Origin: Candidatus Aphodovivens avistercoris
GTDB lineage: Bacteria > Actinomycetota > Coriobacteriia > Coriobacteriales > Eggerthellaceae
NCBI GenBank assembly: GCA_018710945.1
Contig: DVIW01000012.1
Coordinates: 1-64,000 of the forward strand
DNA length: 64,000 bases
Direction of reading: 5' to 3'
Part shown: positions 3,002-47,630 of the stretch, piece by piece
How positions within the stretch are numbered: position 1 is the first letter of the stretch
Layout: every line of letters begins with the position of its first letter
The notes under the pieces: model-generated
Seen by the model: the letters and a program-made list of their open reading frames with translations, nothing else
What the model was told of the DNA's origin: nothing
Databases searched by the model: none
Position numbers and translations under genes: made by a program

Positions 3002-4711
3002 TTACGCCTCGTAGACGATCTTGCCGTCAACCACGGTCATGACGCACTTGATTGTGCTGATCTGCTCCGGGTCGATCTCGAAGATGTCCTGGTCGATGAC
3101 GCACAGGTCAGCCACCTTGTTGATCTCGATGGAGCCGCGCCACGTTTCGGCATGCTCCTGCCAGGCGCCGCCCATCGTGAACTCGCGCAGGGCCTCGGTC
3201 ACGCTGATGCCCAGGTCGGGGCGGTACTGCTTGCCCGTGATGTGCGAACGGCGCGTGACGGCGGCCTGCACGCCGGCAGTCCAGGTGCCGAAGGGCCCGC
3301 CAATGGAGTCGGAGCCGTTGGCCAGGTGCACGCCCAGATCCATGAGATCGCGCTGGGCCATGAACGTGTCGGCGCGCTCGGCGCCCACGCGGTCGGCGGT
3401 CACCTCGAAGGCGAAGTCCTCAAGCCCGGTCTGCACCGAGATGCCGATGCCGTTCTCGGCGGCGCGAGCCAGATCCTCCCGGTCGCCCAGACCGTCGGAG
3501 TGGATCAGGTAGTGGCGCGCGTCGGCACGCGGGTTCTCGCGCTGCGCCTCGATGTAGGCGTCGGTGACCACCTGGGCCGCCTTGTTGCCGATGGCGTGGA
3601 TGCCGATCTGCCAGCCGCGGTCGTGCGCCAGCTTCACGCAGCGCTTGATCTCGGCCTCCTGCTCCTCGTCGGTGGCGTCGGGGCCCAAGAACGTGGAGCG
3701 GCCGTGGCAGCCGGGGCGGTCGGCGTAGTCGTCCTTCATCCAGGCGGTGTAGCCCATGTGCACGCCGTCGCAGAACATCTTCAGCATGTTCATGGTCACC
3801 CAGCGCTCGTCGTCGTAGACGGGCATCTCGAAGGTGTCCAGGCACTCCTTGATGAGCTCGTAGGACTGGATGCCGTTCTTTCCGGGATAGAAGCCGATGT
3901 TCACGCGGGCGGTCAGCCTGCCCTCGCGCAGCAGCTCCTCGTAGGCCTTCAGCGACAGCTCGCCGGAGGCGCCCACCTCGCGCGTGGTGTTGGCGGGGCC
4001 GCAGGTGCAGTCGGTGTAGGAGGTGTAGCCCATCGAGTTCATGAAGCGCTGGCCGGCGATGAGGTTCTCCTTCAGCTCGGCCACCGTCGCGCGCGGCATG
4101 CCGGTGAACACCAGCTGCAGGGCGCTGGCCTCGATCATGAGGCCCGTCGGCTCGCCGTCCTCGGTGCGGATGATCTCGCCGCCCTGCGGGTTGGGCGTGG
4201 CGGCGTCGATGCCCGCCAGCTCAAGCGCCTTGGAGTTCGCCACGCAGGTGTGGCCATCCCACATGATGATGACGGCGGGGTTGTCGGGGCAGGCGTCGTC
4301 GATGTCCCAGCGCGTGATGCGCCGCCCCTCGGCCGCCAGCTCTTCCAGCTGCTCGTCGTCGCAGCCGGCGCCGCGCACCCACTTGCCCGGCCCCACCTTC
4401 TCGGCCTGGGCCGCCAGCACCTCGCGCAGCTTCGCCAGCGTCGGCGCCGCGCCGCGGCTGCAGTCGCAGGTGTTGCGCAGGTTGTCGCTGTAGTCGCAGA
4501 TGTGCACGTGCGCGTCGTGGATGCCCGGCAGCATCACCTTGCCGCCCAGGTCCACCACCTTGGTGTCGGGCCCCGCGTAGCCCTTGATGCGCTCGGTGTC
4601 GCCGCGGTCGATGATGTAGCCGTTCTTCACGGCGACGGCCTGGACGAAGGTGTCCTTGGCATCGAGCGTGGCGATCTTGCCGTTCACGAAAACAGAATCC
4701 GCTACCGTCAT
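3002..4711 (-). CDS. YtcJ-like metal-dependent amidohydrolase
   Basis: 569 aa, usual length for the amidohydrolase_3 (YtcJ) family, which hydrolyses C-N or related bonds with a metal-activated water; the substrate is unknown. The metal-binding motif LPGIHDAHVH is at about residues 60-70. The later motifs IGIHAIGNKAA, LIHSDGLGD and LANGSDS match the remaining metal ligands and the family signature. The start at 4711 follows a GAAGGGAAG ribosome site. It lies 125 bp downstream of a DMT transporter gene on the same strand, which suggests uptake or export of its substrate or product. No signal peptide, so probably cytoplasmic. Confidence 0.88.
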   Translation of the reverse strand: MTVADSVFVNGKIATLDAKDTFVQAVAVKNGYIIDRGDTERIKGYAGPDTKVVDLGGKVMLPGIHDAHVHICDYSDNLRNTCDCSRGAAPTLAKLREVLAAQAEKVGPGKWVRGAGCDDEQLEELAAEGRRITRWDIDDACPDNPAVIIMWDGHTCVANSKALELAGIDAATPNPQGGEIIRTEDGEPTGLMIEASALQLVFTGMPRATVAELKENLIAGQRFMNSMGYTSYTDCTCGPANTTREVGASGELSLKAYEELLREGRLTARVNIGFYPGKNGIQSYELIKECLDTFEMPVYDDERWVTMNMLKMFCDGVHMGYTAWMKDDYADRPGCHGRSTFLGPDATDEEQEAEIKRCVKLAHDRGWQIGIHAIGNKAAQVVTDAYIEAQRENPRADARHYLIHSDGLGDREDLARAAENGIGISVQTGLEDFAFEVTADRVGAERADTFMAQRDLMDLGVHLANGSDSIGGPFGTWTAGVQAAVTRRSHITGKQYRPDLGISVTEALREFTMGGAWQEHAETWRGSIEINKVADLCVIDQDIFEIDPEQISTIKCVMTVVDGKIVYEA

Positions 4712-10022: not shown

Positions 10023-10038
10023 GCGTTTCTTTTGTGAA
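10023..10038. repeat. attL core of the prophage
   Basis: GCGTTTCTTTTGTGAA, identical to 47615-47630. The two copies bracket a complete phage genome, and this copy lies 46 bp from the 3' end of the integrase gene, the usual place of an attachment core. It lies in intergenic DNA, not in a tRNA gene. Confidence 0.88.
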
Positions 10039-36084: not shown

Positions 36085-36673
36085 GAGGCGCAACGGCAGG
36101 CTCGTGGCCGACGTGGAGGGCCACGAGGCGTACAGCGATGCCGTCGCGGCGCTCAGGCTGCTTGAGATCACCGGCGAAGAGGCGGCCCCAGCCGACAAGA
36201 CGTGGGTTGCCTGGCGAGTCGTGTTCGTCGATGCGGAATCGGCTTCCAAGGACGGGCCGGGGCTTCTCGCCCGCGCCGCGTGGGAGCTGTACGGCATCGA
36301 TCTGGACGGCTCGCACGCATCGGAGTGCGGTGGGAAGCGCGTGATCGACTGGGAGGCCGACGCGCAGCGGATCGCGGCGAGCGTGCGGCAGGTGTACGGG
36401 GTCACCTGGGAGCAGTTCGCGCGCGAGACGGCGTTCAGGGACGCCTGCGCGATGATCGGGATGCTGCCGCGCGATACGCCCATGGGGACGGCCATCCACT
36501 ACCGGACGGCGAAAGCCCCCAGGTTCAACGGCAAGAACGGAGAGCAGGTGGCGGCGTTCAAGCGGGCGCAGAGGGCGTTCGCCATCGACGGAGGGGGAGA
36601 CCCCGCCAAGGCGTCGAACGACGCGATGGCGGACTTCGCGGCATCGATGATGAGGGCGGTGGGAAGTGTCTGA
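36062..36673 (+). CDS. Gp15-like tail protein / second chaperone
   Basis: 203 aa, TTG start with GGAG 8 bp upstream inside the previous gene. Contains WELYGIDLDGSHASECGGKR and VIDWEADAQRIAASVRQVYG. The bacteriophage Gp15-like family sits in this place before tape-measure genes. It overlaps the tape-measure start by 8 bp. Confidence 0.72.
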   Translation: MRLTEPIRRRNGRLVADVEGHEAYSDAVAALRLLEITGEEAAPADKTWVAWRVVFVDAESASKDGPGLLARAAWELYGIDLDGSHASECGGKRVIDWEADAQRIAASVRQVYGVTWEQFARETAFRDACAMIGMLPRDTPMGTAIHYRTAKAPRFNGKNGEQVAAFKRAQRAFAIDGGGDPAKASNDAMADFAASMMRAVGSV

Positions 36674-39600
36674 CGGTAGCGTCACCATCGAAGCGATCCT
36701 CGACGCATCGGGCGTCGAGCGCGGCGCCAAGCGCATAGAGGGCGCGCTTGAGGGCATCGGCACGAGGCCGTTCGACGATCTGGCCGACGGCGCCGGCAAA
36801 GCGTCCGACGCCCTGGGCGAAGAGGCCGAGAAGGCCTCCAAAGCGGGCGACGAGACGGAGAAGGCGGGCGAGAAGTCCCGCAAGTCCTCCGCTGGCCACG
36901 ACAAGCTCAAGGACAGCGCGGAGAAGGCGGGAACCGCCCTGCAGGTGGGCCTTGCCGGAGCCGCCGTAGCCGCCGGAGCGGCGGTTTTCGCGGCAGCAGC
37001 CGACTACGAGGGCGCCCAGAGCCGCATCCAGGCCGCTCTGGGCGTGTCCGCGGAAGAGGCTGGGCGGTTTCGCGACATCGGGGCGTCGCTGTACGAAGAG
37101 GGCTGGGGGAACAGCCTTGACCAGGTGACCGACGCGCTGATCCAGACCAAGGAGACCATCCGCGACATCGACGAGACCGGCCTGCAGAAGGTCACCGAGA
37201 ACGCGCTGGCACTGGAGAAGGTGTTCGGCGCGGACGTGAACGAGACGATACGCGGCACGAACGCCCTGATGGAGGGATTCGGCCTCACCGCCGAAGAGGC
37301 ATCCGACCTCATGGCCGCCGGCATGCAGCGGGGGTTGAACTACACCGACGAGCTGGGCGACAACCTCTCCGAGTACGCCGGGCGTTGGGGCGATGCCGGG
37401 ATGACCGCATCGCAGTACTTCTCGCTTTTGGAAGCCGGAACCGCGAACGGGGCCTACAACCTCGACAAGGTAGGCGACTTCCTGAACGAGTTCCTGACCA
37501 GCCTTTCCGATGGAAGAATGGAAGAGAACATCGGGCGGCTGTCCGAGGGCACCCAGGAGGTGTTCGAGAACTTCAAGGCAGGAAAGGCCACCGCCGAGGG
37601 CGTGCTGAACGCCGTCATAGGCGATCTGGGCAGCATGACCGACGAGACGGAGCGGGCGAGCATCGCCAGCGACCTGTGGTCGAGCCTGGGCGAGGACAAC
37701 GCCATGAGCATGATCCTCGCCATGGGCAACGTCGATGACACGTTCGGCGACGTTGCGGGGTCGTCCGAGCAGGTTGCCGCGTCAATGGAGCAGTCTTTCG
37801 CCCAGAAGGCCCAGGCAGCCGTGCGCACCCTGGCCGGGTCGTTGGAAGGCCTCGGAGACCCCATGCTCAACATAGCCGAGTACGCCGCCGAGCTGGTGAC
37901 GGCGTTCGCGGAGTGGTTCGGGAGCCTCAGCGAAGGCGAGCAGCGGGCAGTGGTGACGTTCGCGGCGATAGCCGCAGCCGCCGTGCCCGTTGCCAAGGGC
38001 GTCAACGCCGTGAAAGACGCCGCCAAGGGGGCCGGAGGCATCCTGCAGGCTGCGTCCGGCGCGTTCCAGGCGTTCGCCGAGGCCGCAGGGCTGGCGGGCG
38101 ACGGCGTTGAGGACGCCGGGAAGAAATCAAGCAAGGCCAAGGGCAAGTTCAGCGGGCTGGTTTCCGCCGTCAACCCAATGACGGCCATGTTCGGCGTGCT
38201 GGCGGGCGCTGCGGTCTACCTGGGCGTGTCGTACCTTGAGGCTGCGGAGGACGCCGCCGAGTTGGACAAGGCCACCAACGGGCTGCGCGACGCGGTTTCC
38301 GGCGCTGGGGCCGCTTCGCAGGGGGCCGTTTCGGGCGTGGGCGCGTTTGGGGGCGCGGCGGCAAGCTCGGCGAAGTCGGTTGACGAGCTGCGCGAATCGC
38401 AGGCCGCGTGGGTTGACGACCTCAACGCCCGCCAAGCCGACCTCAACGCCGCGAACGGCACGCTCGACGCGTACATGGCCGCCATCGAAGACCTTGCGGG
38501 CAGAACCGACCTGTCGGCCACCGAGCAGGCCAAGCTGAAGGCCGCCGTCGATGCCGTGAACGACGCCTGCGGCACGACCTACGCCGTGGCGCAGGACGCG
38601 GGCGGGGCGTACCAGGTCATGGCCGACGGGGCGGCGGTGGCGACCGACGACATAAGCCGGCTCGTCGAGGCCCAGAAGATGCAGGCCAAGCTCGACGTGT
38701 ACCAGGACGACTACGCCGAGGCAATGCAGCAGGAGGCCGACGCGGCGGCCACGCTTGCCGAAGCCAAGCAGAAGCAGGCTGCGGCGCAGCAGAAGGTCAA
38801 CGACGCCCTTGCTGCCGGATGGACGCCGGACATGATGGCGCAGTACGACTACGAGCTAGCCCAGGCGAACGCGAACCTGGACGAGGCCCAGCAGCTCTAC
38901 GACGGGGCCGCCGGCGCCCTGTCTGGCTACGAGGAGCAGATGGCCCTCGCGCAGATGGCGCTGGAGGGGATGGACGCGGGATACGCCTCGTTCATCAGCA
39001 ACTCGTCGCTGCTGACCTCCGCGCTCATGGGCAACGGCCAGTCGCTCACCAGCTTTAGGGATGCGCTTGAGGCCACGGGAGTTTCCACCGAGGCCCTTGC
39101 AAGCCTTTCCGACGAGCAGCTGACGGAGCTTGCCAACAGCTACGACGGCACCATCAACTCGATCTCCGACCTGCTCTCCGAATACGACGAGGGCCTGGCG
39201 GGACACGCCGCGTCGGCCATGGAAACGATAGACGGCGCATTCGGGTATTCCACCGACCAGCTCTACGCCTTGGCGGAGCAGTTCGGCGTCCAGGGGGACG
39301 CGGCCATGGCGGCCTACGCCGCCGCCATCCAGAACGGCACGGAACCGGCCATAGCCGCCCTGTCTGTAACCACGGGCGCGAACGCGCAGCAATTGCAGGA
39401 CGTGGCGACGCAGGCGGGAATCAAGGGCAGCGAGGCCATGGCCGCCTACGCGACGGCCATCCAGAACGGTTACGAGCCTGCTTTCGCGGCGCTTGCGACG
39501 GTGACCGGGGCCAACGCCCAGCAGCTGCAGGATGCGGCTGCCCAGGCGGGCGTGAGCGGCGACCAGGCCATGAGCAACTACACCACGGCCATAAACGCGG

Positions 39601-40331
39601 GCTACAGCCCCACCGTGGCGGCTGCTGCGGCCATCAAGGGCATCACGGTTGACCAGCTGTCCCAGGCGGCTGCAGAGGCCGGGTACACGGGAGCCGACGC
39701 GGTTGAGCGGTACGCCGCCGGCATCATAGGCAAGAGCGGCACCGCGGAAAGCGCGGGCGAGGCGGTTGCCGGCGAGGCGAAATCCGGCCTCGAGTCAAAG
39801 AACGCGAGTGCGGCCGAATCCGGCTCGCACTTGGTGCAGAACTTCAAATCGGGCATGGAGTCGATGGCAGCCGTGGCGTACAACGCCGCTGCGGGAATCG
39901 CGTCGACAATCGCGTCCGCCCTGCAGTTCTCGGTCCCCGAGAAGGGTCCGTGGTCCGGTGCGGAGCGCGGCGGCGAGCGTTCGGGCGAGCACCTCGTCGA
40001 GAACTTCGCGCGCGGCATCGTCAAAGCAGCGCCAGCCATCGAAGAGGCGTCGCTGTTCGCCGCGTCCGAGGCCCAGGCCCCGTTCTCCCAACCCGCGGGC
40101 CTGGCGAACGACAAGGAGGCGTGGGTGCTTTGCGACCTCCCCTCCCCCGCCCCAGCGCAGAGCGGGGCGTCGTCGGACGGGCTTGCCGAGGCCTTGGCGG
40201 CCGCCATCGGCGAGCGGATGAAGGTCAAAGGCGACACGGTGTACAACTTCTACCAGCCGGTCGAATCGCCCGACGAGATCGCCAGGGCGATCAGGCTGAA
40301 AGAGAGGTACGGATTGGCGGCGAGGTCATGA
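36666..40331 (+). CDS. tail tape measure protein
   Basis: 1221 aa, GTG start. A coiled-coil-rich N terminus is followed by the tape-measure core (YEGAQSRIQAALGVSAEEAG, TNALMEGFGLTAEEASDLMA), hydrophobic segments around 435-530, long helices and a 44-residue repeat array (about 872-1020). The C-terminal LQFSVPEKGPWSGAERGGE is typical of tape-measure ends. Its length sets the tail length, roughly 180 nm if 0.15 nm per residue applies. Confidence 0.92.
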   Translation: MSDGSVTIEAILDASGVERGAKRIEGALEGIGTRPFDDLADGAGKASDALGEEAEKASKAGDETEKAGEKSRKSSAGHDKLKDSAEKAGTALQVGLAGAAVAAGAAVFAAAADYEGAQSRIQAALGVSAEEAGRFRDIGASLYEEGWGNSLDQVTDALIQTKETIRDIDETGLQKVTENALALEKVFGADVNETIRGTNALMEGFGLTAEEASDLMAAGMQRGLNYTDELGDNLSEYAGRWGDAGMTASQYFSLLEAGTANGAYNLDKVGDFLNEFLTSLSDGRMEENIGRLSEGTQEVFENFKAGKATAEGVLNAVIGDLGSMTDETERASIASDLWSSLGEDNAMSMILAMGNVDDTFGDVAGSSEQVAASMEQSFAQKAQAAVRTLAGSLEGLGDPMLNIAEYAAELVTAFAEWFGSLSEGEQRAVVTFAAIAAAAVPVAKGVNAVKDAAKGAGGILQAASGAFQAFAEAAGLAGDGVEDAGKKSSKAKGKFSGLVSAVNPMTAMFGVLAGAAVYLGVSYLEAAEDAAELDKATNGLRDAVSGAGAASQGAVSGVGAFGGAAASSAKSVDELRESQAAWVDDLNARQADLNAANGTLDAYMAAIEDLAGRTDLSATEQAKLKAAVDAVNDACGTTYAVAQDAGGAYQVMADGAAVATDDISRLVEAQKMQAKLDVYQDDYAEAMQQEADAAATLAEAKQKQAAAQQKVNDALAAGWTPDMMAQYDYELAQANANLDEAQQLYDGAAGALSGYEEQMALAQMALEGMDAGYASFISNSSLLTSALMGNGQSLTSFRDALEATGVSTEALASLSDEQLTELANSYDGTINSISDLLSEYDEGLAGHAASAMETIDGAFGYSTDQLYALAEQFGVQGDAAMAAYAAAIQNGTEPAIAALSVTTGANAQQLQDVATQAGIKGSEAMAAYATAIQNGYEPAFAALATVTGANAQQLQDAAAQAGVSGDQAMSNYTTAINAGYSPTVAAAAAIKGITVDQLSQAAAEAGYTGADAVERYAAGIIGKSGTAESAGEAVAGEAKSGLESKNASAAESGSHLVQNFKSGMESMAAVAYNAAAGIASTIASALQFSVPEKGPWSGAERGGERSGEHLVENFARGIVKAAPAIEEASLFAASEAQAPFSQPAGLANDKEAWVLCDLPSPAPAQSGASSDGLAEALAAAIGERMKVKGDTVYNFYQPVESPDEIARAIRLKERYGLAARS
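39279..39725 (+). repeat. 132-bp coding repeats in the tape measure gene
   Basis: About 3.4 copies of a 44-residue unit built on G-x-x-G-x-x-AM-x-x-Y-x-x-AI-x-x-G-x-x-P-x-x-AA and QQLQDxA. The first two are nearly identical at protein level and later copies diverge. Gain or loss of whole units would keep the frame and change tail length. Confidence 0.75.
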
Positions 40332-41266
40332 GCAACTTGGTCATCGAGATCGTGCGCGACGACGGGCTGGGAGACGGCAACCCGTCGTTCATCGCCGACG
40401 GAAGCAGGTGGGGCATACCCGTTGGCGGGCTGGAGAACTTCGGCGAGGTGTCCTACGAGGTTTCGACGCAGGAATACGCGCAGTACGACGGCTCGTCGCT
40501 TATGCGCGAGAGAACTCCCGAGCAGGACCGCACGATGGAGTTCGTTGCCCGCATCCCGCCCGAAGAGGCACGCGACGAGGCGATGGCGTTCTTCATCCCC
40601 CACCGCGAATACACGGTGAGGTGCACGGCGTTCGGCCGGACGCGGCACTTCAAGGGGCGCCAGCTCGCCTTCGCCGTCAAACTCGGAGGCGTGAACGAGC
40701 GGACCAAGGCCACCTGGACGTGCCTGTGCACCCAGCCGTTCTGGCTGTCGGAGGGCGAGCACGGCTACGACATCGCCGAAGCGCAGGGCATGAGGTTCTT
40801 CCCCTTCGTCTCGCTTCTCCCCGGCATCGACCTGCCGGGGACGGCGGAGAACGACGCCGGCGCCAAGGCCCCCGCGTACGTGCCGGGGTTCGTCTGCGGC
40901 ATCGTCAGCCACACACTGCGCCTGGAGAACGGCGGGCACGTCCCCACCTACCCGCGCTTCGCCGTTTCGGCGAGCGGGAACGTGGAGAACCCGACGATCC
41001 GCGTGACGGACGCCGCAGGCAACGCCGCCATGGACGTGACGGTGCTGGTCGAGATGGCCGAAGGCGACGAGCTGGTGATCGACTTCGACGCGCGCCCCAC
41101 CGCGATAGAGCTCAACGGGGAGAACGTGAGCCACCTGGTCAAGCCGGGATCGACGCTGTCCGCCAGCATCGGCGTCGGGCGCTACGACGTGGAGTGGTCG
41201 GCGGAGGCGGGCGACGCGTCCATGCGCGTGGTGCCGTCCATCAGGGAGAGGTACACGGGGATATGA
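40328..41266 (+). CDS. distal tail protein (Dit)
   Basis: 312 aa, ATGA overlap with the tape measure. Belt domain at the N terminus (FGEVSYEVSTQEYAQYDGSS, RTPEQDRTMEFVARI) and a galectin-like second half. Forms the hub at the tail tip. Confidence 0.82.
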   Translation: MSNLVIEIVRDDGLGDGNPSFIADGSRWGIPVGGLENFGEVSYEVSTQEYAQYDGSSLMRERTPEQDRTMEFVARIPPEEARDEAMAFFIPHREYTVRCTAFGRTRHFKGRQLAFAVKLGGVNERTKATWTCLCTQPFWLSEGEHGYDIAEAQGMRFFPFVSLLPGIDLPGTAENDAGAKAPAYVPGFVCGIVSHTLRLENGGHVPTYPRFAVSASGNVENPTIRVTDAAGNAAMDVTVLVEMAEGDELVIDFDARPTAIELNGENVSHLVKPGSTLSASIGVGRYDVEWSAEAGDASMRVVPSIRERYTGI

Positions 41267-42336
41267 TCGAAGCAGTCATCAGCCTGTACATGGTCGATCC
41301 GTCCGGGGCCGTCGCCCTTGCTGCGGCGAACGTCCCCTACTCCAACCTGCAATGGAACCGCTCCCTCTCGACGTGCGGCGACTTCGCCGCGCAGCTCGTC
41401 GGCCGGTTCCCGCTGCCATGGCCGGGGCGCTACCTGCTCACCCGCAGCGACCGCCCCGAGGCGGCCGTCGTGGAGAAGGTCGAGTACTCGGACGGCGTTG
41501 CGAGCATGTCGGGCAGGTTCGCCGAATGCCTGCTCGACCGCCGGCGGTTCGGCGCTTCCGGCGGAGCGGCCAGCGGGGCGAACTGGCGCCAGGCGGTCAC
41601 GGAAGCGTTCGAGTCTTGGCCGCTTGAGGACGCCCCCGCCATCCTGATGGGCGCGGGAACCGAGCAGGCGTCCGGCGCGTCCTACGCCGTCAAGGCCGAC
41701 AAAAGCGCCACGGCGATGGAGGCGGTCTACGCCGTGACGTCGGCAAAGGGAAGCTACCCCGTCCTGTCGCTTGACTGGGAGGCGGGCGCGCTTTCACTGT
41801 CGATCATCGATGGCAAGGACAGGACGCGCGCGCAGTCCGAGAGGCCGGTCATGGTGTTCGGTTTGGAAATGGCCACGGCGAGCGCGGTGTCGTACTCGGG
41901 CGACTACTCGGTGGCGTGCTCGACCGTGGTCGCCACGGCGTCGAAGCAGGCCCAGGACGCGGCGGGCGTCGAGGTCGAGGTCGCCGTTCCGGGGTTCGAC
42001 CCCGAGACGATGTGGCGCGCCATCGCATCCGAGGACGTGTCATCGCTCTGCTCGGACGATCCGACCGAGGGCGAGGCGGCCGAAGCCGGCGCGCTGCGCG
42101 CCTACGACCACATGCCCGCGCTGTCGGTGGACGCCACCGCCATGGGAAACGGGTACGGAACGCTGTGGGACCTCGGCGACACCTGCGAGGCCGACGTTCC
42201 CGAGGCCGGCGTGTCGGCATCGGCACGCATCGAGGAGGTGCGCGAGGTGGTCAAGAAGGAGGGAGCGACACTTGAGGTCTCATTGGGGTCGAAGGCGATA
42301 AGCAAGGTCGCGCGGGCGCTGATGCGCCTGCGATAG
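41263..42336 (+). CDS. tail tip protein (Tal / Gp37-like)
   Basis: 357 aa, overlaps Dit by 4 bp. The N-terminal LYMVDPSGAVALAAANVPYS and SLSTCGDFAAQLVG match the Siphovirus Gp37-like / prophage endopeptidase-tail family; no peptidase domain is added. It closes the tail tube. Confidence 0.78.
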   Translation: MIEAVISLYMVDPSGAVALAAANVPYSNLQWNRSLSTCGDFAAQLVGRFPLPWPGRYLLTRSDRPEAAVVEKVEYSDGVASMSGRFAECLLDRRRFGASGGAASGANWRQAVTEAFESWPLEDAPAILMGAGTEQASGASYAVKADKSATAMEAVYAVTSAKGSYPVLSLDWEAGALSLSIIDGKDRTRAQSERPVMVFGLEMATASAVSYSGDYSVACSTVVATASKQAQDAAGVEVEVAVPGFDPETMWRAIASEDVSSLCSDDPTEGEAAEAGALRAYDHMPALSVDATAMGNGYGTLWDLGDTCEADVPEAGVSASARIEEVREVVKKEGATLEVSLGSKAISKVARALMRLR

Positions 42337-43295: not shown

Positions 43296-43820
43296 ATGGC
43301 GAAGCAGACCGAAATCGGCTACGAGGCCCCCATCGAGTACCAGCCCTACGACACGGGCGGCACCCTCGTCAGGGCGGCGCACCTCAACGCGATGAACGAG
43401 GGCATCGTGAACGCCTGCAACGCGATTGACGAGCTGCGCACCAAGCGCCTCGTCACCTACATGGTGCTGCAGGACGGCGAGACCGCCACGCAGGACGCCT
43501 ACGGCGAGGCGATCCTGGGGCCGTGCCTGATCCTCGACCTCGCCGAGCGCGCGACCTACTACGACAACGGCGAGGACGGCGAGGCGCACGAGCGCAACCT
43601 GATCACGTCCGGAGCCGACATCGACGCGCTCCGGGATTCCATATCCCGGTGCGTCACCGCATCGGCTGTGACGGCCATGGTGAAGACTGGCAGCAACCAT
43701 CCTATCGAGATCGTGGTTGAGGGTGATGACAGCAACGTGACGCTGTACGCTTCGAGCGCGGGCATCGGGCTGTGGGACAACACCACAAGCAGCGCAATCG
43801 GCTCCGTTGACTGGCAATAG
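43296..43820 (+). CDS. tail fibre with switchable C terminus (currently joined form)
   Basis: 174 aa. Residues 1-118 are the constant part (YQPYDTGGTLVRAAHLNAMN, AERATYYDNGEDGEAHERNL, ending ALRDSISR). Residues 119-174 are the joined cassette (beta-rich, ending SAIGSVDWQ). The codons for Asp-Ser-Ile-Ser-Arg contain the recombination core at 43636-43649. Behind the stop codon lie two further cassettes that would continue the same frame after recombination, giving 201- or 218-aa forms. Probably the tip that contacts the host surface. Confidence 0.85.
   Translation: MAKQTEIGYEAPIEYQPYDTGGTLVRAAHLNAMNEGIVNACNAIDELRTKRLVTYMVLQDGETATQDAYGEAILGPCLILDLAERATYYDNGEDGEAHERNLITSGADIDALRDSISRCVTASAVTAMVKTGSNHPIEIVVEGDDSNVTLYASSAGIGLWDNTTSSAIGSVDWQ
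43631..43649 (+). repeat. recombination site A in the fibre gene
   Basis: CCGGGAT-TCCAT-ATCCCGG: perfect 7-bp arms around a 5-bp centre, the layout of a tyrosine-recombinase core. The right 14 bp (ATTCCATATCCCGG) recur at site B, 12 of them at site C. Confidence 0.82.
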
Positions 43821-43821
43821 C

Positions 43822-43835
43822 ATTCCATATCCCGG
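43822..43835 (+). repeat. recombination site B
   Basis: ATTCCATATCCCGG, direct copy of the site A core, one base after the stop codon of the joined cassette. Its left arm (AATAGC) is not conserved. Confidence 0.8.
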
Positions 43836-44095: not shown

Positions 44096-44412
44096 CTATT
44101 CGCCCGCTACGTAGACGAGGCGCACCCAGCCGCTTTCGCCGACGTTGGACGTTCCCGTGGCCCAGACGGCCCCTGCCTGGGGGTAGAACCTCACGTTGCT
44201 GCCCGGCAGGCAGAAGTACGGAAGCTCCTCGTATGGAGCCGGCAGATCGGGGAACTCGAACTGGAGCGCGTTGCCGGGGCTCTTGGCCGATGTGCAGTCG
44301 GCGTAGAACTGCAGGATCACCATTCCGCCAGATCGCACCGGGCTTATGAACTGGTAATCGTGCGTAGCCGATGACGCGTCTCCGATCTCAGCGAACGTCT
44401 GGGATATGGAAT
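44096..44412 (-). other. silent fibre cassette 3, inverted
   Basis: Read from site C on the minus strand: TCC ATA TCC CAG ACG TTC, open to TAG at 44096-44098. It would add 101 residues (QTFAEIGDASSATHDYQF, GGMVILQFYADCTSAKSPGN, ending WVRLVYVAGE). It converges on cassette 2 with only 8 bp between the stop codons. No own start codon or ribosome site fits the whole frame, as expected for a cassette that must be joined to be expressed. Confidence 0.82.
44401..44412 (-). repeat. recombination site C, inverted
   Basis: The minus strand reads ATTCCATATCCC followed by AG, so it faces sites A and B. It lies 4 bp beyond the stop codon of the recombinase gene. Confidence 0.82.
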
Positions 44413-44416
44413 ACCC

Positions 44417-45301
44417 TCACGCCGACCGCTGCAGATGCGCCGCCCACGCCCGCTGCGCCTGGACGCACACGCTCTTGCGCGGCACGATGTAGTGCTCGTA
44501 TGCCGTGCCTATCTCTGTGTGACCCAGCATCATCGCCACCGTCTCTATGCCCACGCCCGCCTCTATGGCGATGGTGGCCCAGCTGTGCCGCAGGTTGGTC
44601 ATGGAGACGTGCGGCAGGCCGTGCGAGCGGCACCACGACCTTATCCGCCTCGCCGTGGCGGTTGGGGACAGCGGGCAGACCAGATCGGACTTGCGTCGGC
44701 CCTTGGCGAGCTGGCGAAGGCGGCGCAGCGCAAAGGATGGGAGCCACAGGCTGCGGTCACTGCGGTCGGTCTTTGGCGGCACCACCACCGTCCCCGACCG
44801 CACGTCCTGGCGGCTCTTGGACACGCGTACCTCGCCGGTCTTGAGGTTGACGTCCCCCCACGTGAGCGCACACGACTCGCCGCGCCGAAGCCCGAGCGTT
44901 AGCGAGCAGATAGCCGCCGCCTCGGCCTCGCATCCCCAGAGGCCGCGCAGGTAGTCGCGCGCCTGGGAGGCGTCTAGTACCTGCGGATGGTAGGCGGGCT
45001 TGCGCGGCAGCTCGATGCCGGCCGTGGTGGGATCGTAGACACGCAGCCCCAGCCTGCGGATGGCCCAGCGGATGACCTGGCGCAGGGTCTTGTAGGCCTT
45101 TTCCGCCGCTCCCGGAAGCTCGAACGATGCCACCCAATCCTGGACGGAGTCCGGATCGATCTCTTCCAAGGCCATGCCGCCCCAGCGGGGCAGCACATGG
45201 AGGCGAAGGGCACTTGCGTAGCCCTCCACGGTGCTCTCGCGGCGCGTGCGGCGCTTGTCGGTCAGGTACAGATCTGCGATCTCGGCGATGGTCATGGCCA
45301 T
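44417..45301 (-). CDS. tyrosine recombinase of the fibre-switching cassette
   Basis: 294 aa. N-terminal SAM-like domain (about 5-95) and catalytic domain with Arg139, Lys177, Arg238, His239, His261 and Tyr271 (TAYEHYIVP), all present except a Thr at the first His of HxxR. It lacks the basic arm-binding N terminus of the integrase at 10084-11223, as simple inversion enzymes do. It lies in the middle of the tail/lysis region, opposite to its neighbours, touching site C. Most likely role: inversion among sites A, B and C, comparable in principle to the Rci shufflon enzyme. A second integrase from a nested element is the alternative. Confidence 0.87.
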   Translation of the reverse strand: MAMTIAEIADLYLTDKRRTRRESTVEGYASALRLHVLPRWGGMALEEIDPDSVQDWVASFELPGAAEKAYKTLRQVIRWAIRRLGLRVYDPTTAGIELPRKPAYHPQVLDASQARDYLRGLWGCEAEAAAICSLTLGLRRGESCALTWGDVNLKTGEVRVSKSRQDVRSGTVVVPPKTDRSDRSLWLPSFALRRLRQLAKGRRKSDLVCPLSPTATARRIRSWCRSHGLPHVSMTNLRHSWATIAIEAGVGIETVAMMLGHTEIGTAYEHYIVPRKSVCVQAQRAWAAHLQRSA

Positions 45302-45433: not shown

Positions 45434-45805
45434 ATGGGTCTCGAATCCCCAGAAATCGGCCTGCTCGCCGTCACGGTCGCCTTCATGCTGCTGGATATGG
45501 TGACGGGCATCGCCAAGGGCGCCAAATCGGGCGCGCTTGACTCGAAGGTCATGAGGGAGGGCCTGTGGCACAAAGCGGGCTTCATCGGCCTGATGGCGCT
45601 CGCCTACGCCCTGCAGTTCGCCGCCAGCCTCGCAGATCTCGGGATCGACGTGCCGGCTATCGGCGCGGTATGCGTGTTCGTCATCCTGACCGAGGCCGTC
45701 AGCATCGCCGAGAACCTGTGCGCGCTCAACCCGTCCATCGCGTCCAGCCCGCTTGGCTCGGCGCTCGCCGGCCACGGCTCGTCCAATGCTTCAAGCGGCG
45801 ATTAG
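45434..45805 (+). CDS. holin (phage_holin_4-like)
   Basis: 123 aa with three hydrophobic helices. The motif LLDMVTGIAKGAKSGALDSK followed by GLWHKAGFIGLMALAYALQF is characteristic of the toxin-secretion/phage-lysis holin family. It makes the membrane lesion that releases the lysins. Overlaps the next gene by 20 bp. Confidence 0.9.
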   Translation: MGLESPEIGLLAVTVAFMLLDMVTGIAKGAKSGALDSKVMREGLWHKAGFIGLMALAYALQFAASLADLGIDVPAIGAVCVFVILTEAVSIAENLCALNPSIASSPLGSALAGHGSSNASSGD

Positions 45806-46379: not shown

Positions 46380-47435
46380 ATGGCCAAGTTCATCATCGAC
46401 GTGTCGGAGCACCAGGGCTCCATCGACTGGGAGGCGGTCAAGCCGCACATCGACGGCGCTATCATCCGCTGCGGGTACGGCAACGACGATGCCAGCCAGG
46501 ACGACAAGCAATGGGCGCGCAACGTCAGCGAGTGCGAGCGATTGGGCATCCCGTTCGGCGTGTACCTTTACAGCTACGCCACGGACCCCGGCATGGCGCG
46601 CAGCGAGGCGCAGCACGCCCTCCGACTGATAGCGGGCCGCAAGCTGCAGTACCCCGTGTACTTCGACTCCGAGCAGCCAGGGACGGAGGGCGTCGCTCGG
46701 GCGTGCGCCGAGGCGTTCGGCGACGTCATCGAAGCGGCTGGCTATTGGTGCGGGGTGTACGCGTCGCGCAGCTGGTTCCAGTCCTACATCAACCTCGACC
46801 GGTTCACCAAATGGATCGCGTCGTGGGGAAGCTCGGACGCCGGCATGGGGTGCGACATGTGGCAGTACTCCTCCGACGGCTCCATCGCGGGCATCTCGGG
46901 GCGCGTTGACTGCAACTGGTGCTACCGCGACTTCCCGGCGGAGATCGGCGGGGGCTCGCCGCAGGCCCCGGCGGGCGGCGGCAAGTCGGTCGAGCAGCTG
47001 GCCCAGGAGGTCATCCAGGGCCTCCACGGGAACGGGGACGAACGCAAGGCGTCCCTCGGCTCCATGTACGACGCCGTGCAGGCGCGCGTGAACGAGCTTC
47101 TGGGGGTTTCCGGCGGCTCCTCCCCTTCCGGCACCACCTACGTCGTGCAGAGCGGCGACACGCTCTCCGGCATCGGCGCGCGCTTCGGGGTGGATTACGG
47201 CGCCATCGCGTCCGCCAACGGGATCGCCGACCCCGATCTTATCTACGCCGGGCAGGTGCTGACGATCCCCGACGGCTCCGGGTCTGCATCAGGATCCTCC
47301 ACCTACATCGTGCAGGCGGGCGACTGCCTCAGCGTGATCGGGGACAAGCTTGGCATCGACTGGACGGCAATCGCCGCCAACAACGGGATCGGAGCGCCCT
47401 ACACCATCTACCCGGGGCAGGTCCTGTACGTCTAG
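46380..47435 (+). CDS. endolysin: GH25 muramidase, Cpl-7-like motif, two LysM domains
   Basis: 351 aa, starting right after the previous stop. GH25 domain 1-200 with Asp7 (IIDVSEHQG) and Asp96/Glu98 (YFDSEQ). A Cpl-7/CW_7-type binding motif at about 208-243 (LAQEVIQGLHGNGDERKA). LysM repeats at about 251-295 and 305-351 (YVVQSGDTLSGIGARFGV, YIVQAGDCLSVIGDKLGI). Cleaves the glycan backbone. No signal peptide, so export depends on the holin. Confidence 0.95.
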   Translation: MAKFIIDVSEHQGSIDWEAVKPHIDGAIIRCGYGNDDASQDDKQWARNVSECERLGIPFGVYLYSYATDPGMARSEAQHALRLIAGRKLQYPVYFDSEQPGTEGVARACAEAFGDVIEAAGYWCGVYASRSWFQSYINLDRFTKWIASWGSSDAGMGCDMWQYSSDGSIAGISGRVDCNWCYRDFPAEIGGGSPQAPAGGGKSVEQLAQEVIQGLHGNGDERKASLGSMYDAVQARVNELLGVSGGSSPSGTTYVVQSGDTLSGIGARFGVDYGAIASANGIADPDLIYAGQVLTIPDGSGSASGSSTYIVQAGDCLSVIGDKLGIDWTAIAANNGIGAPYTIYPGQVLYV

Positions 47436-47614: not shown

Positions 47615-47630
47615 GCGTTTCTTTTGTGAA
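47615..47630. repeat. attR core of the prophage
   Basis: GCGTTTCTTTTGTGAA, identical to attL at 10023-10038. Host DNA resumes at 47631. Between the terminator and this site the DNA is AT-rich and holds the inverted copy of the arm-like 12-mer (47569-47580). Confidence 0.88.

Follow-up and report, generated by a model that had tools for sequence, protein, structure and literature searches.

A Rin-type shufflon in a prophage of Candidatus Aphodovivens avistercoris, with a palindromic site in its putative tail-tip gene whose left arm recurs among related loci

The closest described relatives of the locus reported here are the Rin shufflons, which have been characterized in Bifidobacterium prophages (Mavrich 2018, PMC6109161) and in E. 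lenta clade 1 prophages, where the repeat is ttccgtat (PMC8778435). According to the passages of both papers that deal with these systems, small variable segments are attached to the constant N-terminus of a tail receptor-binding gene by means of short rix repeats, such as TTCCCTAACCC; an XerD-size tyrosine recombinase adjoins the array, and a separate integrase lies at the far end. The same passages call the repeat asymmetric and contain no mention of a palindromic site inside the gene, and our literature searches found no paper describing one. One passage of PMC6109161 raises the question of how Rin, which has no arm-binding domain, flips inverted sites and spares direct ones. The Rci shufflon of R64/IncI plasmids, which acts on pilV, likewise relies on a tyrosine recombinase that inverts C-terminal segments, and in the sections concerned its sites have a conserved core and right arm and a variable left arm (PMC11852207, PMC4176322). 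Its target is a pilus adhesin, whereas the locus described here belongs to a phage tail. As related in part of PMC11852207, the R64 left arm is bound non-specifically, with the C-terminal domain of Rci thought to aid, and symmetric sites also undergo excision. Gin, Cin and Min are serine recombinases, in contrast to the tyrosine recombinase of this locus. That they, too, alter a phage tail tip by DNA inversion is described in PMC6109161.

The window, i.e., the whole stretch of 64,000 nucleotides that was analysed, contains a further example of the Rin shufflon of receptor-binding proteins already in the literature, a system of a known kind (Table 1). It shares with the published examples the constant N-terminus with its small variable segments, the short repeat (here the 12-bp core ATTCCATATCCC), and the placement of recombinase and integrase. 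It differs from them, as far as the published passages go, in having three segments and three sites only and in carrying A, not G or C, as the spacer base. When Rc is joined at the core to each of the three variable segments, the reading frames stay open and encode proteins of 174, 201, and 218 aa, which are identical through ...DALRDSIS and wholly different thereafter, all three segments being in frame with the constant N-terminus as in Rin. The gene order, in which Rc follows soon after the tape measure, Dit, and minor tail genes, suggests a tail-tip function for the Rc/Rv gene, and a receptor-binding role of this tip may be presumed from the literature on other phages. No confident Pfam or PHROG family match was obtained for Rc or Rv1-3, and Pfam gave no match for the full tip proteins of ten relatives; PHROGs assigned several of those ten to tail or virion families. 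AlphaFold models were too weak to use (mean pLDDT 40 for the 174-aa tip and 49 for Rv3). A homologue of Rc was detected in another family (L179, genome G130), with 38% identity over 90 aa and covering residues 21-110 only. This match ends just short of the site position, and a site-like sequence is absent from the 3.3 kb examined there.

Table 1. Features of the prophage and its shufflon, in window positions.
Feature	Position	Strand	Basis or remark
attL, 16-bp direct repeat GCGTTTCTTTTGTGAA, prophage left end	10023..10038	+	identical 16-mer
Prophage integrase, 379 aa	10084..11223	-	phrog_1 integrase 6e-22
Tail tape measure protein	36666..40331	+	phrog_1272 8e-48; PF10145
Distal tail protein (Dit)	40328..41266	+	PF22768 2.7e-7; phrog_33
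Minor tail protein, Gp37-like	41263..42336	+	PF14594 2.9e-9; phrog_538
Rc, constant N-terminal part of putative tail-tip gene, 113 aa	43296..43634	+	common to all three joined forms
Site A, palindromic rix site, putative anchor	43631..43649; core 43636-43647	+	exact sequence; GGG left arm as in 29/32 family A sites
Rv1, variable segment expressed in this assembly, 61 aa	43635..43820	+	ORF running through site A
Rv2, silent variable segment, 88 aa	43821..44087	+	in frame once joined at core
Site B core, direct to A	43822..43833	+	TAG stop of Rv1 within its left arm
Rv3, silent variable segment, 105 aa	44096..44413	-	in frame once joined at core
Site C core, inverted vs A and B	44401..44412	-	12-mer match
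Rin-type tyrosine recombinase, 294 aa	44417..45301	-	PF00589 2.2e-15; phrog_1; stop 4 bp from site C
Holin	45434..45805	+	PF05105 3.2e-16
Endolysin (GH25 plus LysM)	46380..47435	+	Pfam/PHROG matches
attR, prophage right end	47615..47630	+	second copy of attL 16-mer

The recombinase comprises the PF00589 domain and a core-binding domain from residue 4, with no arm-binding N-terminal domain, which is the architecture of Rin. In the alignment with Rci of an IncI plasmid (384 aa), it lacks the C-terminal extension of that protein. As a member of the phage integrase family, it could in principle be the integrase of the prophage itself, with the repeats as remnants of att sites, but this is hardly credible: a second integrase, 29% identical to the shufflon recombinase, stands beside a 16-bp att repeat shared by the two prophage ends and found within the window solely there, and in most relatives multi-site arrays adjoin the homologous recombinase. 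The integrase and the recurring repeat thus delimit a prophage of about 10.0 to 47.6 kb with its own integrase, and the protein next to the array is better regarded as a dedicated shufflon recombinase.

The 12-bp core is present in three copies in total in the 2.45 Mb genome, where the reversed pattern, used as a control, gave 0 matches. The repeat therefore has the distribution of a rix site, being located in the constant gene and at the segments, in both orientations, and rare elsewhere in the genome. The first-pass annotation of this DNA had described site A as a recombinase core set within codons, with 7-bp arms (CCGGGAT and ATCCCGG) around a 5-bp centre (TCCAT). On re-reading the sequence, the letters and coordinates were exact, the right arms of the three sites were those reported (ATCCCGG, ATCCCGG, and ATCCCAG), and the Asp-Ser-Ile-Ser that it considered constant was present in all three joined forms; the description as a recombinase core placed within codons is supported. 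The left flanks read CTCCGGG (A), AATAGC (B), and GAGGGT (C). That the palindrome is statistically special in itself was considered and dropped, with 10 perfect 7/5/7 palindromes observed in the window against 10.45 expected under a Markov model. Three copies of any one 12-mer within 800 bp are not ordinary, having arisen in 1 of 2000 simulated sequences. What gives site A its weight is where it lies, the presence of two partner sites, and the fact that it recurs in relatives; the palindrome alone is ordinary. At 44413-44419, the recombinase stop codon is 4 bp from core C, and in some relatives (e.g., L026) a stop even overlaps the core, so that the end of the recombinase gene appears to form part of the left flank of the site.

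Relatives of the recombinase were collected from related genomes (17 of 199 genomes at E <= 1e-30) and from the class (18 of 396 at E <= 1e-40), the genome studied here being included in both counts, as well as from viral and named genome contigs, which were queried with an alignment of ten recombinases. Together with two phage records, these sources provided 46 non-redundant recombinase loci, L063 having been removed as a copy of L062. Recognisable sites were present in 39 loci; the remaining ones (L038, L041, L042, L043, L070, L073, and L075) were omitted from the site counts owing to an unrecognised core or a contig end. Site A was defined as the site inside the constant gene, and its reading frame was always identical. 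Seven loci have sites without a visible A (L027, L030, L031, L033, L037, L060, and L065), and their sites were counted among the others, which resulted in a comparison of 32 A sites with 125 other sites. Loci retrieved by a GGG-containing pattern were kept out of the 32. Bifidobacterium loci of like design, with core TTTCCGTAACCC or TTCCCTAACCC, were included or seen. Single-protein and peptide-pattern queries of the viral and genome contigs returned no relative or rearranged copy of this exact prophage. The largest array observed here, that of L036 (4144-6492, oriented), comprises 12 sites, of which 11 point the same way and the twelfth, next to the recombinase, is inverted. Of the 18 relatives' loci of the related-genome search, seven lie on contigs that break off no more than about 1.1 kb from the recombinase, an effect to be expected of mixed arrangements. 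The cores vary between loci mainly at positions 4-9 (CCATAT, CCGTAT, CCTTAT, CCTTGT, GCTTGT, CGCTGT, and others) and are identical within most loci, a pattern that would be expected of an exchange region in which the partners have to match. The proposed 5-bp centre holds as a reading of the symmetry, but an exchange region of 6-8 bp is likelier given these locus-specific positions and a crossover to the left of position 11, for which evidence is given below.

The left arm of site A is kept throughout this family. GGG precedes the core at 29 of the 32 A sites and at 8 of the 125 others (Fisher 4.6e-21, with loci treated as independent though they are related). In 7-bp arm symmetry, A ranks first in its own locus in 25 of 32 cases, is tied in seven, and is never beaten (0), the permutation value being at its floor of 5e-5. 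Site A departs from the R64 description, in which all left arms are non-conserved, in that its two arms are reverse complements of each other; the junction site of the shufflon on E. coli plasmid p85 lacks this symmetry, with only 3 of 12 positions symmetric. The first-pass annotation had stated that the left arm is kept only at A. As a family-wide trend this is borne out, and the sequences make it a stronger observation than could have been known from a single locus; as a strict rule it fails, because in the two-site loci L028 and L051 the left arm is identical at both sites, and because 6 of 33 recombinase-proximal sites carry GGG, which make up six of the eight exceptions. At A itself, the exact arm is missing in L050 (GCAGG) and L051 (CCGAG), and in L040 GGG persists opposite a changed right arm, ATCAC. 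A search with an inner-site pattern retrieved 13 stretches. An A site is visible in seven of them (L182, L223, L228, L230, L235, L236, and L310), each time with GGG; L230 and L235 belonged to the set beforehand, and L236 and L310 represent one phage. In the Bifidobacterium-type loci L248, L253, L256, and L263, both outer sites, the recombinase-proximal one included, have GGG where visible and the inner sites TAGC or TAGT. GGG at the outer sites fits the predominant inversion of the entire segment in virions that is reported in a passage of PMC6109161.

The left arm might be kept merely because it encodes part of a conserved linker (x-Asp-Ser-x-Ser) and might not contribute to recombinase binding, and the single reading frame of the A sites and the homology of many constant genes agree with this. 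The codon usage makes it quite improbable. In 29 of 32 loci, CGG, GGG, or TGG stands directly ahead of the Asp/Glu codon, and the residue varies between Arg, Gly, and Trp. Arg is encoded by CGG in 12 of 13 cases (0.29 expected for CGG or AGG from codon usage) and Gly by GGG in 8 of 8 (0.17 expected), with TGG in nine loci; in the codon before Asp, the first position is free and the third is fixed, the second and third being GG. Moreover, in L076 the left arm of A (TTTGTGAT) has changed in step with the right arm (ATCACAAA), and both form an 8-bp matching pair. A residue that changes while GG is kept, together with the paired arms of L076, points to selection on the DNA. The pattern also recurs among constant genes without detected homology. 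The constant genes as a whole group into two large clusters, with this locus and L069 as singletons, and the statistics over loci ignore this relatedness.

The other sites are characterized by stop codons. A stop is present in the left 12 bp of 123 of the 125 other sites, compared with 4 of the 32 A sites, and in many loci each segment terminates right at the next site. This distribution could mean that the other sites lost the palindrome because a stop was needed there, and that A retains the ancestral symmetric site. TAGGG and TAAGGG, however, combine a stop with GGG in eight cases, so that a stop does not exclude the palindrome. In addition, where the stop ends before base -1, C occupies this base in 48 of the 77 distinct flanks, against a background of 0.27, opposite to the G of A. 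Such passive loss is therefore rather doubtful.

The reading that we favour, and regard as very probable, is that a siphophage-like prophage carries here a shufflon of the Rin type, with the left arm of site A selected at the DNA level; site A would act as a preferred anchor, and the partner sites would restrain deletion. The tyrosine recombinase would recombine inverted pairs among the three rix sites and thereby attach one or another of the three C-terminal segments in frame to Rc, which would change the receptor-binding tip, as the literature on other phages suggests. Starting from the current order, inversion between A and C would lead to expression of Rv3, and Rv2 would require two inversions. 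The in-frame modules, the dedicated recombinase, and the conserved left arm of A can be read from the sequence, whereas inversion in this very prophage is presumed. In a crossover, as the arrangements in relatives indicate, the left half of a site would stay and the right half would move with the segment. The left half of A would thus never leave the gene, where, in this family, selection on the DNA appears to keep it matched to the shared right arm as a reverse complement (GGGAT...ATCCC); the other sites carry a stop codon in this position. Site A is predicted to bind the recombinase well on both arms, probably more tightly than its partners, and so to serve as the preferred anchor; the asymmetric partners may limit pairings of the wrong kind, chiefly those that would delete DNA between direct sites. 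What counts against this proposal is that 16 of the 32 loci have further sites direct to A, with ten such sites in L036, and the R64 model, in which symmetric sites also excise, predicts their loss. Arrays are evidently not lost rapidly through a symmetric A, and asymmetry in the partner may suffice to prevent excision.

Rearrangements in nature support exchange at the cores. L236 and L310, the clearest such pair, represent one phage from two metagenomes, 99.9-100% identical and in two arrangements, with every breakpoint at cores. A variant base at core position 11 accompanied the right half in its exchange between sites C and A, which places the crossover to the left of this position. The two arrangements are related by two inversions, which can be derived as A x s2 followed by A x C, or as A x C followed by s2 x C. 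L050 and L054 share a segment that one phage carries at A and the other at an inner site of inverted orientation, as expected of an exchange at A, and L032 and L059 also differ at A. In L034 and L061, the expressed segments are homologous and the inner block is inverted, which points to silent shuffling but could also result from a return through several events at A. The asymmetry was earlier proposed to force every exchange through A, so that A would be an obligatory partner, each inversion would change the expressed tip, and inner sites would never pair. This strong form is consistent with the left arm of A as the only one regularly conserved, with the path from L236 to L310 by two inversions using A, and with the pairs that differ at A. 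We nevertheless consider it unlikely, because the same two arrangements are also explained by a path that pairs an inner site with C, because the inner block of L034/L061 is inverted behind homologous expressed segments, and because a passage of PMC6109161 reports that silent segments are rearranged by inversions at the site that follows the gene. A as a preferred anchor, not an obligatory one, remains the reading adopted here.

The difference in left arm between the in-gene site and its partners, seen over 32 loci, bears on the avoidance of deletion by Rin and provides a concrete sequence element to swap. If this difference matters, it would offer a simple way of constructing recombination arrays that only invert and whose output site is fixed. 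We put forward only tentatively, as a possibility that we do not favour, that Rin employs two classes of sites: a palindromic in-gene anchor and partners whose left arms are actively kept non-palindromic (stop, then C at -1), steering exchange through the expressed junction and blocking deletion. If true, such a code would do with DNA what the extra C-terminal domain of Rci is thought to do.

Two further arrays deserve mention. In L053 (6197-7147), the same variable segment is found at both array ends in opposite orientation, as a duplication or an assembly artefact. The metagenome phage contigs L061 and L067 (oriented, with sites at 3845 and 4888) are 99.9% identical over the 3870 bp up to a rix core, after which their recombinases are about 72% identical; behind its array, L061 is 96.7% like L034. 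Unless a contig is chimeric, rix sites may thus also be points of module exchange between phages.
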